A DNA stretch of 11,697 nucleotides from an uncultured Bacilli bacterium. Lineage in GTDB: Bacteria; Bacillota_I; Bacilli_A; RF39; UBA660. Below are positions 5,212-9,213 of the stretch, in pieces. How positions within the stretch are numbered: position 1 is the first letter of the stretch; each line of letters opens with the position of its first letter. The stretch is taken from the NCBI GenBank assembly GCA_944363745.1, contig CALVVD010000017.1, positions 1 through 11,697 on the forward strand, in the 5' to 3' direction. The position numbers were made by a program, and so were the translations under genes. The notes below the pieces were generated by a model that had not been told where the DNA came from, made no database searches, and worked only from the letters and a program-made list of their open reading frames with translations.

Positions 5212-6573
5212 TTTGAAATAAAAGGTCGTTCCTTTATTCTTTTTGGAAGTTACTCCATAATCATAGTTATGTAATAGTAAAATATTTTTTACAATAGATA
5301 GTCCTAAACCAGTACCATAAACATATCTTTTATGATTTTTCTTGCTACGATAATATCTATCAAAAATATGATCATATTCACTTTTTTCTATACCTTTACC
5401 ACTATCTTTAACCATTATCTTGTAATAATTGTTTTCTTCTTTTACTTCAATAATAACTATTTTATTATCTCCTGTGTAGTTTAGAGCATTATTTAATAAA
5501 TTATATATTACTTGTTCTATTTTCTTTTGGTCAGCTTTTATTATTAGTTTATCTATGTTTTCATGAATAAATTCTATTTTATAACCATCTTTTTCTATAT
5601 AAATATTATGATGATTTATTATTTTTTCAATTATTTTTATTAAATCAAATTCCTCTAGTTCTAATTTTTCTAAGTCATTTTCTACTTTAGTTAAAGTTAA
5701 GATATCATTAACAAGATTAGTTAAACGATCTGTTTCTTCAATAATTATATCTAAGTTAGAGATAGTTTTTTCTTTATTATTAATATTAATATCTTTAATT
5801 AATTCAGCATAAGCTTTAATCATAGTAAGAGGAGTTTTTAAATCATGAGATATGTTAGCCATTAAGTCTTTTTGTAATTCTTCTGTTTTAGATAATTCTT
5901 TTTTCATATCATTTAAGGCATTAGTTAAGTCTATAAGTTCTTTAATATCACTATCTGTTTCAAATTTTGTATTCATTTTACCTTTAGATATTAACTTAGC
6001 AGCTTTAGATATTTTTATTATGGGATTAGATAATCTTTTAGAAATAAAATAAGCAATTACAATACTTAATAGTAGGACAACAATACTTACAATTATTAGT
6101 TGTTCTTCTATAATACTAATAGTAGAATCTAATGGTATTAGAGATGTTGATATAAATATATATAAATTATTACTTAGTTTTGTAGCGGACATTATGCTTT
6201 TTTCTTTAGTAAAATTATTAACTAAATTATAAGTTTTAGTATTTTTGTTACTATTAATAAAATTCCTTTTAACAGCTTTACTTCTTAAATTACAGTTACT
6301 ACTATAAGTAGAGTAGAGATTATCGCCATTAATATTAGTTAGTTCAATACAAACATTTTCACTATATGATACTTTATCTAGTTTGTTATATAAAGAAGTA
6401 GAGTCTTCTGTTATTAAGATATCTTTGGCAAGATTTTTTATAGTTCTAGTTTTAGTCCATTCATAATAAGTGTTAAAAAAGATAACTTGGAAGAAAAAGA
6501 GAAATATTAATATTACTAAAGAGAAAATAGCTAGGTATTTAAATATTTTAGTAGATAGTTTATTGTTCATCAT
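5194..6573 (-). CDS. Membrane sensor histidine kinase of two-component system
   Basis: A 459-residue sensor kinase. TM1 is about residues 12-33, an extracytoplasmic sensor region about 34-157 contains two Cys (75, 94), and TM2 is about 158-178. A HAMP domain (about 179-232) follows. The dimerisation/phosphoacceptor block ISHDLKTPLTMIKAYAE carries His243. The ATPase domain shows the N box NLLNNALNYTG (358-368), G1 DSGKGI (390-395), F box DHIFDRYYR (401-409) and G2 YGTGLGLSIV (419-428). All catalytic motifs are intact. It belongs to the common HisKA class; the stimulus is unknown because the sensor region matches nothing I recognise. Its start overlaps the end of the response regulator gene by 14 bases (11 if the second ATG at 6570 is used), so the pair is coupled. 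Confidence 0.93.
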   Translation of the reverse strand: MMNNKLSTKIFKYLAIFSLVILIFLFFFQVIFFNTYYEWTKTRTIKNLAKDILITEDSTSLYNKLDKVSYSENVCIELTNINGDNLYSTYSSNCNLRSKAVKRNFINSNKNTKTYNLVNNFTKEKSIMSATKLSNNLYIFISTSLIPLDSTISIIEEQLIIVSIVVLLLSIVIAYFISKRLSNPIIKISKAAKLISKGKMNTKFETDSDIKELIDLTNALNDMKKELSKTEELQKDLMANISHDLKTPLTMIKAYAELIKDININNKEKTISNLDIIIEETDRLTNLVNDILTLTKVENDLEKLELEEFDLIKIIEKIINHHNIYIEKDGYKIEFIHENIDKLIIKADQKKIEQVIYNLLNNALNYTGDNKIVIIEVKEENNYYKIMVKDSGKGIEKSEYDHIFDRYYRSKKNHKRYVYGTGLGLSIVKNILLLHNYDYGVTSKKNKGTTFYFKIKKDN

Positions 6574-7231
6574 TAAACTTATATCCTATTCCTCTAACAG
6601 TAACAATTAAATCTCTATATTTACCTAGATTATTTCTTAACATCTTAATATGAGTGTCAACGGTTCTATCATCACCATAAAAGTCATAGCCCCAAATCTT
6701 ACTAAGTAATTGTTCACGAGAGATAGCAATTTTTTTATTGTTGATAAAATACTTTAAGATAAGAAATTCTTTAGGAGTAACATTAATTTCTTTATTATCT
6801 ATTTTAATAGTATGTTCTTTAAAATTAACAACTAAATTATGATAAGTATATATATCTATTTCTTTTTTAGTTCTCTTTATAATAGCTTTCATTCTAGCGA
6901 TTAATTCACGGGGAGAGAATGGTTTACATAGATAGTCATCAATTCCTTTATCAAAGCCTTCTAACTTATCTATTTCATCATCTCTTGCTGATAAAATAAT
7001 AGTAGGTATTCTTTTTTCTTTTTGAATATTATTAAGCAAAGTAAAGCCATCCATTTTAGGCATCATGATATCTAATACCATTAAATCAAATTCTTCATTA
7101 TTTAATAGTTCTAAGGCTTTAATTCCATTATCTGCTTCTGTTACTTCAAAGTTTTCTTGTAGAGCATATTCTTTAATAACTTCTCTTATATTTTCTTCAT
7201 CATCTACTATTAAGACCTTATTCTTTTGCAT
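6560..7231 (-). CDS. OmpR/PhoB-family response regulator
   Basis: A 223-residue DNA-binding response regulator, partner of the adjoining kinase. The receiver domain (about 1-115) has acidic Asp10/Asp11, phosphoacceptor Asp54 in VLDIMMPKMDG, Ser81 in ILSAR, and Lys103 in CKPF. The winged-helix domain (about 128-220) shows VTPKEFLILKYF, then REQLLSKIWGYDFYGDDRTVDTHI (in two parts about 170-193) and the terminal VRGIGYKF wing. The ATG at 7231 is chosen because AGAGGTG lies 6 bases upstream. A GTG nine bases earlier overlaps that site and is an unlikely start. The gene has a TTTACT-N17-TATAAT promoter with a leader of about 15 bases. Targets are unknown; autoregulation and control of the nearby envelope genes are possible. 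Confidence 0.93.
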   Translation of the reverse strand: MQKNKVLIVDDEENIREVIKEYALQENFEVTEADNGIKALELLNNEEFDLMVLDIMMPKMDGFTLLNNIQKEKRIPTIILSARDDEIDKLEGFDKGIDDYLCKPFSPRELIARMKAIIKRTKKEIDIYTYHNLVVNFKEHTIKIDNKEINVTPKEFLILKYFINNKKIAISREQLLSKIWGYDFYGDDRTVDTHIKMLRNNLGKYRDLIVTVRGIGYKFNDEQ

Positions 7232-7252
7232 AAGTTTCACCTCTTTTTCCTT

Positions 7253-7281
7253 ATTATACCTTAATTTGATAAATAAGTAAA
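7253..7281 (-). promoter_or_regulatory. Promoter of the two-component operon
   Basis: On the minus strand TTTACT (plus 7276-7281), a 17-base spacer, and TATAAT (plus 7253-7258). The predicted start of transcription, near 7246, gives a short leader holding the AGAGGTG ribosome binding site. Confidence 0.7.
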
Positions 7282-7289
7282 AGAAGAGA

Positions 7290-7369
7290 AGAAAATAAAA
7301 ACTCCATTCTTCCTACATAAACCTTTCAACGTACTAAACGTGAAGCTTCGGATAGAACAGAGTTCTTAT
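7290..7369 (-). ncRNA. Putative small structured RNA (or leader attenuator), unknown family
   Basis: Starting about 7 bases after a consensus promoter, the minus strand encodes about 80 nt whose ends pair. Bases 7350-7369 (minus: AUAAG, AACUCUGUUCU, bulged A, UCC) pair with 7295-7313 (GGAAGAAUGGAGUUUUUAU): about 19 pairs including three G-U pairs and one bulge, followed by a pyrimidine/U-rich run. The interior holds a second hairpin: UUCACGU (7339-7345) pairs with ACGUUGAA (7326-7333) with one bulged U and a UUAGU loop. The G-U pairs would be A-C mismatches in the opposite transcript, which supports minus-strand transcription. It does not match SRP RNA, 6S, tRNA or any riboswitch consensus I know. 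The downstream operon has its own promoter, which favours a stand-alone RNA, but a terminator leader is possible. The rest of the gap 7232-7589 holds promoters and an inverted repeat but no gene. Confidence 0.6.
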
Positions 7370-7375
7370 ATAACA

Positions 7376-7404
7376 ATCATATCATTTTTAATAGTGACTG
7401 TCAA
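7376..7404 (-). promoter_or_regulatory. Strong promoter of the small RNA
   Basis: On the minus strand a perfect TTGACA (plus 7399-7404), exactly 17 bases, then TATGAT (plus 7376-7381), preceded by TGA giving an extended -10 (TG-A-TATGAT). This is the best promoter match in the window. Confidence 0.8.
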
Positions 7405-7475
7405 TGCTAGTATACTCAAAACCATAACTTTTTATGATTAATATTTAGAGCTTTTTTAAAGATAAATGTTAAGTC

Positions 7476-7520
7476 TTTTCACTTCGCAAAAAGCAATTTT
7501 TTGATTTTGCGAAGTGAGAA
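7476..7520. repeat. 16-bp inverted repeat between divergent promoters
   Basis: TTTTCACTTCGCAAAA (7476-7491) and TTTTGCGAAGTGAGAA (7505-7520) are inverted copies with one mismatch (a G-U pair in the plus-strand RNA) around a 13-base spacer. The central 12 bp, CACTTCGCAAAA and its complement, are perfect. No U-tract follows on either strand, so it is not a standard terminator. It ends 11 bases before a -35 box, suggesting an operator or other protein-binding site. Confidence 0.75.
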
Positions 7521-7531
7521 ATGTTTACCTA

Positions 7532-7560
7532 TTTACAAAAAGTGTTTTTTATTATATAAT
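7532..7560 (+). promoter_or_regulatory. Promoter of the small membrane protein gene
   Basis: TTTACA (7532-7537), a 17-base spacer and a perfect TATAAT (7555-7560). The predicted start near 7567 leaves a leader of about 23 bases with AAAGGAG. Confidence 0.85.
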
Positions 7561-7589
7561 ATGTAACACAAAAGGAGTGGGGATATTAT

Positions 7590-7913
7590 ATGAAAGATAA
7601 AAAAGATAATACAAAACAGATTAAATCTATTGTTAAAAATTTAAAGTTTTATAACACATTGGGGGGCATTGCTTTAGGAGTTACAGGTACAAAATTAGTA
7701 GATGCAATGATAGAAGGAGATGTTTTGGGATCTTTGATGAAATTATCAATTTTTTTATGGCCGGCATGTGCATATTATGCTATTAATAAAAGCCTTGATA
7801 GAGAGATTGATAATTTATTTAATGAGAAATTTGATGATACTAATACAAAAGATGATAATGATAGTGTTAATAGTTGTAGAGTATATGGGAAAAATAGAAA
7901 GTTAAAGTTATAA
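7590..7913 (+). CDS. Small hypothetical membrane protein, 107 aa
   Basis: I do not recognise this family. After a basic N-terminus (MKDKKDNTKQIKSIVKNLK) come two stretches likely to lie in or on the membrane: FYNTLGGIALGVTGTKLVDAM (about residues 20-40, moderately hydrophobic, Gly-rich) and VLGSLMKLSIFLWPACAYYAI (about 45-65). The C-terminal 40 residues are polar, rich in Asp/Asn then Lys. The ATG is supported by AAAGGAG 12 bases upstream, a long but usable spacing, and a very good promoter. It is monocistronic and converges on the flippase gene with only four bases between stops. A phage-holin or stress-induced small membrane protein role could be imagined but nothing shows it. Confidence 0.75.
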   Translation: MKDKKDNTKQIKSIVKNLKFYNTLGGIALGVTGTKLVDAMIEGDVLGSLMKLSIFLWPACAYYAINKSLDREIDNLFNEKFDDTNTKDDNDSVNSCRVYGKNRKLKL

Positions 7914-7927
7914 CTTTTTATTTTTTT
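7890..7927. terminator. AT-rich terminator between convergent genes
   Basis: AAAAATAGAAAGTT (7890-7903) pairs with AACTTTTTATTTTT (7912-7925), 14 pairs with one G-U, 8-base loop, ending in a run of T on the plus strand. It spans the stop codons of both convergent genes and may act in both directions, better on plus. Confidence 0.6.
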
Positions 7928-9213
7928 AGACTTGTTTTAACTTGGTATAAGTTATAGAAAGTTGTAAATATTACATTTAAACTTGTTGAAAAAATAAGCC
8001 CCCACATACCTATTTTTAATAAAGAGAAAATAAGTAGGAAGATAGTTCTGATAAGAGTTCCTGCAATAGTTGCCTTAAGTCCCAACCTAGTTAAGCCCAT
8101 GGCATCTAAACAAGCAGAAAGCGGAGCTTGAATATACTGTAAAATACAAATAGGGGCTAGAAATCTTATATATGAGGCACCTTCAGTAGTGTTGTAAATT
8201 ATTTGTAAAAAGAATTCTGGAAAAAGGAAAAGAGCAAGGGATGCTGGTACTCCTATTAAAAGAGAGATAAATATTCCTTGTTTTAGTTTCTTTTTAGCAT
8301 AATCATAATGTTTGTTACTTGTCGCTTTTGATATAATAGGTAGTAAGGCTTGGGATATAGCAAGAGTAAAGAATGAAGGTAGGAGTAATAAAGGCATAAC
8401 AAAGCCACTAATTATTCCATATTCTGTGATGATAAAATTAGAACTATAGCCTACATAAGTTAGAGTACTTGTTAAAATAATAGGCTCTAAGAAATAACCA
8501 AATGATCCGATAAGTCTACTTGCTGTTGAAGGAATACTTATACTCATCGCTTCTTTAGCATAAAACTTATTAAAAGCTAGATCTTGTTTTTTTATAGTAA
8601 GATTTTTTGGTAGGAAGAAAAATAAGACTAAAATAGATGATAATTCACTAATAATATTAGAAAGTATAACAAAAGTAACGGCAACTTCTAAACCTTTATT
8701 TATAAAGATAGGAACACCTATAATAATTAATATAAGTCTTATAATGTCTTCTAAAACATTAGAGGTGACATGAGGTAGCATTTGTTGTTTACCAAAGAAA
8801 TAACTTCTTAAAATACTTGAGGTACTTGTAAGAGGTAAGACTACACATATTGCAAGAATTGGTAGTAAAGCTCGTTCTTCATGGAGAAAATTAAGGGCAA
8901 GGGTTGGAGCGATTATAATGACAAAAGATATTATTAATATATTTATAAATAAAGAAATTGGTAAAAGAGAAAATAATAGTCTTTTATTATTTTTAGAGTC
9001 TTCTGCTATTAGTTTTGATAAAGCCGTAGGGATACCAAATTGACATAGACCTATTAATAGTGAAAAAGTAGGTAATACTAACATATATAGACCAATACCA
9101 ACGCTACCCATTAGTCTACTCATAACTATTTTTATAATCATTCCTAGGGCTTTTGTTAAGAAGCCTCCTACTATTAAAATAATTGTTGATTTGATAAATG
9201 TTTCCTTTTTCAT
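7918..9213 (-). CDS. SpoVB/MATE-type polysaccharide or lipid-linked precursor flippase
   Basis: A 431-residue polytopic membrane protein of the MOP superfamily (polysaccharide exporter/SpoVB/MurJ-like branch), which flips lipid-linked sugar precursors across the membrane. The N-terminal block FIKSTIILIVGGFLTKALG (6-24), then SRLMGSVGIGLYMLVLP (32-48) and GIPTALSKLIAE (60-71), is typical of SpoVB and its paralogues. About 12-14 hydrophobic helices follow. It is somewhat shorter than Bacillus SpoVB (about 518). The ATG at 9213 matches the family N-terminus; a TTG 63 bases upstream (9276) would add an unlikely polar tail. No clear ribosome binding site precedes either start, so the mRNA may be near-leaderless. 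SpoVB-like proteins also occur in non-sporulating species, so this does not prove sporulation. Substrate unknown; cell-wall lipid II or a surface glycan are options. Confidence 0.85.
   Translation of the reverse strand: MKKETFIKSTIILIVGGFLTKALGMIIKIVMSRLMGSVGIGLYMLVLPTFSLLIGLCQFGIPTALSKLIAEDSKNNKRLLFSLLPISLFINILIISFVIIIAPTLALNFLHEERALLPILAICVVLPLTSTSSILRSYFFGKQQMLPHVTSNVLEDIIRLILIIIGVPIFINKGLEVAVTFVILSNIISELSSILVLFFFLPKNLTIKKQDLAFNKFYAKEAMSISIPSTASRLIGSFGYFLEPIILTSTLTYVGYSSNFIITEYGIISGFVMPLLLLPSFFTLAISQALLPIISKATSNKHYDYAKKKLKQGIFISLLIGVPASLALFLFPEFFLQIIYNTTEGASYIRFLAPICILQYIQAPLSACLDAMGLTRLGLKATIAGTLIRTIFLLIFSLLKIGMWGLIFSTSLNVIFTTFYNLYQVKTSLKK

Follow-up and report, generated by a model that had tools for sequence, protein, structure and literature searches.

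A solitary DUF3800-VIII RNA in an uncultured Bacilli bacterium and its possible origin from an RNA-controlled nuclease module

The RNA and its locus

The stretch of DNA studied here, referred to as the window, comprises 11,697 nucleotides of contig CALVVD010000017.1 (assembly GCA_944363745.1) originating from an uncultured Bacilli bacterium, and the element in question is a small structured RNA encoded on its minus strand, 57 nt upstream of a response regulator open reading frame (ORF). A covariance search of the whole window against Rfam revealed a match to the family RF03075 (DUF3800-VIII) with 51.5 bits, compared to the curated cut-off of 40.2, covering model positions 1–64 of 64. RF03075 was the sole Rfam family reaching its own cut-off in the window. 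Since a full-length match above the cut-off means that the family is already known, the new RNA family proposed in a sequence-only reading of the same DNA is ruled out, and membership of the window RNA in the DUF3800-VIII family is virtually certain. The copy is intact. It belongs to a catalogued, functionally unexplained family: the DUF3800 RNA motifs were reportedly described in a 2017 paper, and no assigned function for them was found in the literature searched, which did not include that original description.

The fold predicted for positions 7280–7372 on the minus strand (−25.2 kcal/mol, z −3.51, none out of 200 shuffled sequences being as low) consists of a 19-bp end-to-end helix with one bulge, an inner hairpin, and then a pyrimidine-rich tail, in agreement with the closed structure previously described from the letters alone. 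In terms of the family model, this corresponds to an outer helix of 16 model pairs, a conserved internal loop (GAA / UUAUGUA), and an inner hairpin. No ORF of at least 60 amino acids covers positions 7290–7369, as had also been stated. Compensatory stem changes in relatives were evaluated for 31 chosen sequences (30 distinct), with the Rfam structure laid by hand on the alignment columns: 18 out of 25 pairs had changed on both sides, while shuffles gave 9.9 ± 1.6 such pairs and none of 500 reached the observed value. A lack of such changes, which the sequence-only reading had named as a refutation, is therefore not what relatives show. Under this structure, 87.2% of the cells were paired, a value that dropped to 45–53% when the partner was slid by one to three columns. 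In the family alignment, the two sides of the internal loop carry invariant GAAG and GUAG, respectively, and the RNA is conserved along its whole length (mean column identity of 80%, alignment A2).

The window RNA is predicted to be transcribed from its own promoter, and the sigma-70-type site reported earlier is indeed present (Table 1), placing the inferred transcription start near position 7369. The combination of an exact TTGACA and a TG-extended −10 box (at least 5 of 6 positions) had a single occurrence in the window, and 3 out of 300 dinucleotide-shuffled windows contained it. A looser scan (9 of 12 positions) of the region 6500–8000 yielded 9 sites compared to 11.1 expected, and thus only the near-perfect site is notable. 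Moreover, of 33 Bacilli loci compared, among them the window, 29 have TTGACA at a distance of 52–54 nt ahead of the RNA core; L010, L042, L044, L027, and L036 were set aside from the total of 37 genome loci and the window.

Table 1. Features around the RNA, with positions given in window coordinates.
Feature	Position	Strand	Basis or remark
DUF3800-VIII RNA (RF03075)	7298..7366	-	full-length covariance match; closed ~69-nt structured RNA
Sigma-70-type promoter TTGACA-N17-TATGAT with extended -10	7376..7404	-	sequence scan
Imperfect inverted repeat across the -35/-10 region	7370..7404	-	by eye; clearer in relatives (TTGACAATnACCATnAAAAATGGTAnTATTGTCAT)
Pyrimidine-rich tail and junction where locus L039 has ~1.06 kb extra, including the DUF3800 gene	7264..7297	-	
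Promoter-like site TTTACT-N17-TATAAT between RNA and response regulator gene	7253..7281	-	
Response regulator gene, syntenic anchor in relatives	6560..7240	-	ORF as listed, start codon uncertain

An inverted repeat TGACAAT...ATTGTCA, spotted by eye, spans both promoter boxes (approximately −53 to −20 upstream of the RNA) in many Bacilli copies (L009–L045), whereas L027 and L041 have no such repeat or only an imperfect one. The repeat is a possible operator.

Distribution of the RNA and of the neighboring DUF3800 gene

To survey the family, a collection holding one genome for each of 84,980 species was searched with a pattern for the conserved RNA core. All of the 37 genome stretches obtained passed the RF03075 cut-off, as did all eight stretches recovered from IMG/VR with a slightly looser pattern. 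Most of the 37 loci were labelled uncultured Bacilli, many of them originating from gut or rumen samples. One RNA copy was present in 35 of the 37 genomes, with two in G015 and three in G035; a multi-copy mobile element, as such, was rejected on these counts. Within the related order, represented by 288 genomes drawn from a larger group, 18 carried the RNA under stricter filters that missed some cases (19 with G202 added). It was also found in 9 of 35 genomes sampled from the genus of G001, a related species bearing locus L039, and, with seven copies, in 5 of 345 genomes from the order of the Colidextribacter genome G035, two of these copies lying beside a convergent DUF3800 gene (L125 and L126). 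The RNA of G684 (47.9 bits) is located near a different ORF.

These frequencies, together with the decayed or empty state of the window's site in relatives, speak against the abundant housekeeping type of RNA that had been among the suggestions. 6S, signal recognition particle (SRP), transfer-messenger (tm), and RNase P RNAs were likewise rejected, given the patchy distribution of the family, RF03075 as the only family above its cut-off, and the finding of neither tRNA nor tmRNA in the window by ARAGORN. What is retained of the sequence-only reading is a real structured RNA gene with a promoter of its own and compensatory changes.

The patchy spread suggests that the RNA module was distributed by horizontal transfer. 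A block of conserved DNA (approximately −66 to +945) with differing flanks surrounds the RNA units, which fits a conserved promoter–RNA–gene unit as well as mobility and is no proof of the latter. Mobilization of solo copies in trans was considered weak: 8 out of 44 RNA-bearing genomes were without any DUF3800 (G005, G008, G009, G010, G014, G031, G036, and G154), though many genomes are incomplete, most relatives being metagenome-assembled.

In relatives, the RNA resides beside a DUF3800 gene, usually in convergent orientation; in Bacilli units, the stop codon of DUF3800 directly adjoins the 3′ end of the RNA. The gene product is predicted to adopt an RNase HII-like fold with invariant acidic residues. 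It matches PDC-M04A, a profile of the PADLOC phage-defence candidate PDC-M04 (E values of 2.3e-21 for L039 and 7.5e-24 for L111); PDC-M04 has candidate status, and a literature search for this name returned nothing. Searching solved structures by sequence gave a single, non-significant match (JetB, E 0.28), and NCBIfam gave no match over cut-off. The DUF3800 neighbor, usual for RF03075 and lying outside its covariance model, is missing beside the window RNA: none was detected by Pfam in 9 of the 16 listed ORFs, and tblastn with the L039 protein found no match in the window at E ≤ 1e-5. The window RNA is therefore very probably an orphan at its site, the absence of DUF3800 applying to the window.

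Starting from the RNA, the 37 genome loci were distinguished into those with an unbroken DUF3800 gene (17, namely 16 of the close Bacilli kind and L027), with a broken or truncated one (9), without a trace (8), and phage-like ones (3). L028 and L029 were scored as without a trace based on right flanks of 233 and 345 nt and on the lack of DUF3800 on their contigs. Since this search required an intact RNA core and was blind to decayed RNAs, the gap was closed by protein-first searches. Among the 288 genomes of the order, 12 encoded a close DUF3800 protein (62–100% identity) without stops; ten of these featured the RNA over cut-off, G202 featured one of 42 bits with laxer filters, and G148 was not assessable, its gene being cut by the contig end. 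In total, 11 of 11 assessable close and unbroken DUF3800 genes were accompanied by the RNA. Conversely, 8 of the 18 RNA genomes lacked an unbroken DUF3800 (next to the RNA, the gene was unbroken in 10, decayed in 4, and absent in 4). Distant DUF3800 proteins (28–33% identity; G183, G034, G206, G198, and G282) and a 40-residue fragment in G113, where no RNA was found, fall outside the count of 12.

The same association was apparent in viral contigs, where ten loci encode DUF3800 at 42–54% identity: the RNA was adjacent in nine (25–63 bits, E ≤ 0.002), and the tenth (L165) showed a weak match at the expected place (10.4 bits, E 0.54). A Riemerella phage with a 48% identical DUF3800 has the RNA in the corresponding place at 34.8 bits, below the cut-off. 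Extending the protein-first search to whole classes yielded cases in just 2 of 395 genomes and in 1 of 391, query genomes included, too small a number to be informative, and plasmids contained four distant matches (<60% identity). As judged from these counts, loss appears to be one-sided, the DUF3800 gene being lost while the RNA stays and not the reverse.

Within the nine viral loci, six pairs are convergent, two RNAs lie downstream in the same direction (L170 and L174), and one is ahead of the gene (L173). A fold conserved despite changing orientation argues for a molecule acting in trans and not for an antisense RNA or leader. A cis element, i.e., a leader for the operon of the response regulator or else a transcript antisense to the convergent DUF3800 message in the manner of type I toxin–antitoxin systems, might be considered given the position of the window RNA ahead of the response regulator and the abutting 3′ ends in Bacilli units. 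However, a separate promoter-like site for the response regulator follows the RNA, and one and the same fold recurs across many contexts, with the RNA placed in three ways relative to DUF3800 and also occurring in phages that lack this gene. This explanation is disfavoured and regarded as very improbable.

The phages SPbeta (SPBc2), Goe14, and Jimmer2 contain the RNA and no DUF3800; PF12686 (DUF3800) was found in none of 11 RNA-bearing viral records, i.e., these three phages and eight viral contigs, the latter possibly being fragments. The Bacillus phage RNA region matched 29 phage records, and the Goe14 record already names the RNA DUF3800-VIII. A second pattern retrieved 45 viral stretches, 17 of which were confirmed with the family model, one of them (L182) having DUF3800 in the fetched stretch. 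Downstream of the RNA, genes for terminase small subunits belonging to three different PHROG families are found, at a distance of no more than about 25 nt in L004 and L205 and of about 480 nt in L203. In SPbeta, the RNA precedes yonK–yonJ, and other viral stretches have other genes, so that the terminase-side place is recurrent, not universal. The host genome G035 combines a convergent RNA–DUF3800 unit with two further RNA copies, one of which (contig C113, locus L010) adjoins a gene related to that of the terminase small subunit in L004. By blastn, the window RNA and the L010 RNA found no match in phage records, and literature searches on the SPbeta region and on RNA mimics returned nothing. 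As a side observation, twister-sister ribozymes were located near the RNA in phage DNA, spaced along a few kb (six in L005, 1582–5397, minus strand; three in L010, 4512–5692, plus strand), and in Goe14, another structured RNA is annotated ('skipping-rope'; L121, 1260–1369) about 1.2 kb before the DUF3800-VIII RNA.

The window's site in related genomes

The response regulator was present in 28 of the 35 genomes of the genus sample. At this site, G001 (L039) has DUF3800 between the RNA and the response regulator; the window, G154, G678, G681, and G675 have the RNA alone; remnants with E ≤ 1e-4 were detected in G689, G691, G687, G310, G112, and G683, and weaker traces (E 0.46 to 4.1) in G182, G667, G672, and G673. 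G115, G183, and G688 had no usable upstream sequence and were not judged, although the response-regulator tree labels the former two 'none' and the latter 'SOLOsplit'. RNA and DUF3800 states are mixed on this tree, and RNA decay in several lineages is real.

Several further observations concern the neighborhood. A palindrome (TCACTTCGCAAAA...TTTTGCGAAGTGA) lies near the RNA at 7470–7520; its right half is fused to truncated RNA remnants in L136, L144, L146, and L153, which suggests that it is a deletion end point. A 107-aa protein without Pfam match is encoded at 7590–7913 (plus strand); in relatives (e.g., L130, 1250–1501), a similar small protein gene lies between the RNA and the response regulator, i.e., on the other side of the RNA. 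In several relatives (L116, L130, and L133), the solo RNA next to the response regulator has an ATPase-like gene ahead of it, along with a promoter-like sequence of a different kind (TTGAAA, TATAAT).

Whatever the module did, it is quite possible, if somewhat short of even odds, that the window RNA is an evolutionary relic without present function. DUF3800 is absent beside it, relatives show stages of decay at the same site, and G679, the window's sister on the response-regulator tree, has no trace of the RNA. On the other hand, all 69 positions of the window RNA match the paired copy of G001, down to an extra U that G675 shares, and so do the 25 adjoining promoter positions, despite differences at 18.4% of response regulator sites. 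Of the 51 positions compared in the left flank, 5 differ (p 0.012 relative to the RNA); with 18 right-hand positions added, 11 of 69 differ (p 6e-4), the right part being the junction, where homology is doubtful. Since G001 is not the nearest relative of the window on the tree, either an old allele may have been kept or the segment exchanged. Similarly, a single difference in 68 positions separates the solo RNAs of G154 and G681, compared to 23.5% of third codon positions; between G154 and G678, the RNA differs at 4 of 68 positions, a proportion little lower than that in the downstream stretch (25 of 291). Constraint on the RNA without a DUF3800 gene is thus suggested but not proven. The identity to the paired copy, the low G154/G681 divergence, and the near-consensus promoter kept in the window speak against a mere relic; recent gene loss would also fit the identity to the paired copy and the low G154/G681 divergence.

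Proposed function and its alternatives

The association described above suggests that the RNA restrains or partners the nuclease-like DUF3800 protein. Because DUF3800 was not found without the RNA, the RNA often stands alone, and phages carry the RNA only, an RNA inhibitor fits best. In relatives, the RNA would be the small partner of the DUF3800 protein: the folded RNA would bind the nuclease in trans and keep it inactive, thus acting as the RNA antitoxin of a module that is a candidate for phage defence or addiction. Under this scheme, loss of the nuclease gene would be tolerated with the RNA still in place, but loss of the RNA with the gene still in place would not. The RNA of the window would have outlived its toxin gene and still be able to act as antitoxin, being now free to decay or kept as protection against re-entry of the module. 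The probability of this explanation as a whole, an orphaned RNA antitoxin or inhibitor of a DUF3800 nuclease module, is estimated at roughly one half, and the antitoxin mechanism itself is put forward tentatively, at slightly less than even odds.

The closest comparison within the family is RF03075 itself, with which the window RNA shares the conserved internal loop, the stems, and the full-length match over the gathering score, differing from usual members in the missing DUF3800 gene. AbiF and its RNA RCd22 (abiF RNA motif RF03085, type III-like RNA antitoxin) likewise combine a structured RNA motif with one protein family. For RCd22, neutralization in cis and in trans by direct RNA–protein interaction was shown experimentally (PMC12373285). 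AbiF, however, belongs to the Abi_2/AbiD/F family, whereas DUF3800 is predicted to be RNase H-like, and RCd22 lies upstream of its gene with two motif copies, in contrast to the single, mostly convergent motif of DUF3800-VIII. In type III toxin–antitoxin systems (ToxIN, TenpIN, and CptIN), an RNA inhibits a nuclease, as it would for DUF3800-VIII under the present hypothesis. Their toxin nuclease fold differs from that of DUF3800, and their RNA is co-transcribed with the toxin, which in most loci is not the case for DUF3800-VIII.

As an alternative, the RNA may be an activating cofactor or guide, DUF3800 and RNA together forming a ribonucleoprotein nuclease and solo RNAs being non-functional leftovers. 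RNase H fold nucleases include RNA-guided ones, and OMEGA/IS605 TnpB with its guide RNA provides the example of a small RNA next to an RNase H-type-fold nuclease. Retention of the RNA by assessable close unbroken DUF3800 genes and the occurrence of DUF3800 in some CRISPR loci (PMC12669027, PMC10910872) are in line with this. Unlike the TnpB guide RNA, the DUF3800-VIII RNA has its own promoter and no guide-like variable end, its conserved length running up to the DUF3800 stop codon in Bacilli units, and phages that keep the RNA with its invariant loop yet without DUF3800 are left unexplained by a pure cofactor. A cofactor is considered unlikely. The likelihoods assigned to the mechanisms overlap with that of a relic, because a relic can descend from either mechanism.

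Several points weigh against the antitoxin explanation. Toxicity, binding, and expression are presumed from sequence and genome comparisons, and an essential RNA cofactor likewise predicts that the protein never occurs without the RNA. Tandem RNA repeats upstream of the gene, as known for type III systems, were not found. The RNase H fold of DUF3800 was described with a catalytic rearrangement (PMC10910872), so that nuclease activity is not assured. Furthermore, solo RNAs at the window's site are damaged (G675 and G689) or truncated (G691, G687, G310, and G112), and a solo RNA is therefore dispensable in several lineages. Finally, a different order of events is conceivable, in which G001 acquired DUF3800 through recombination and the other genomes never lost it.

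A more speculative and rather improbable extension of the antitoxin explanation would regard DUF3800 plus its RNA as a defence system with a nuclease restrained by RNA, the solo RNAs of phages (the SPbeta group, Brevibacillus phages, and phages of gut Clostridia, with several copies ahead of packaging genes) as decoys silencing the host nuclease, resembling decoys against type III systems, and the orphan RNA of the window as their chromosomal counterpart, immunizing the host against the module.

One-sided loss, three gene arrangements, and RNA-only phages reduce the function of the family to one question, namely whether the RNA neutralizes a matching DUF3800 nuclease in trans. If so, an RNase H-fold family would turn out to be a toxin or defence nuclease under RNA control, with the phage RNA copies as candidates for RNA-based counter-defence.
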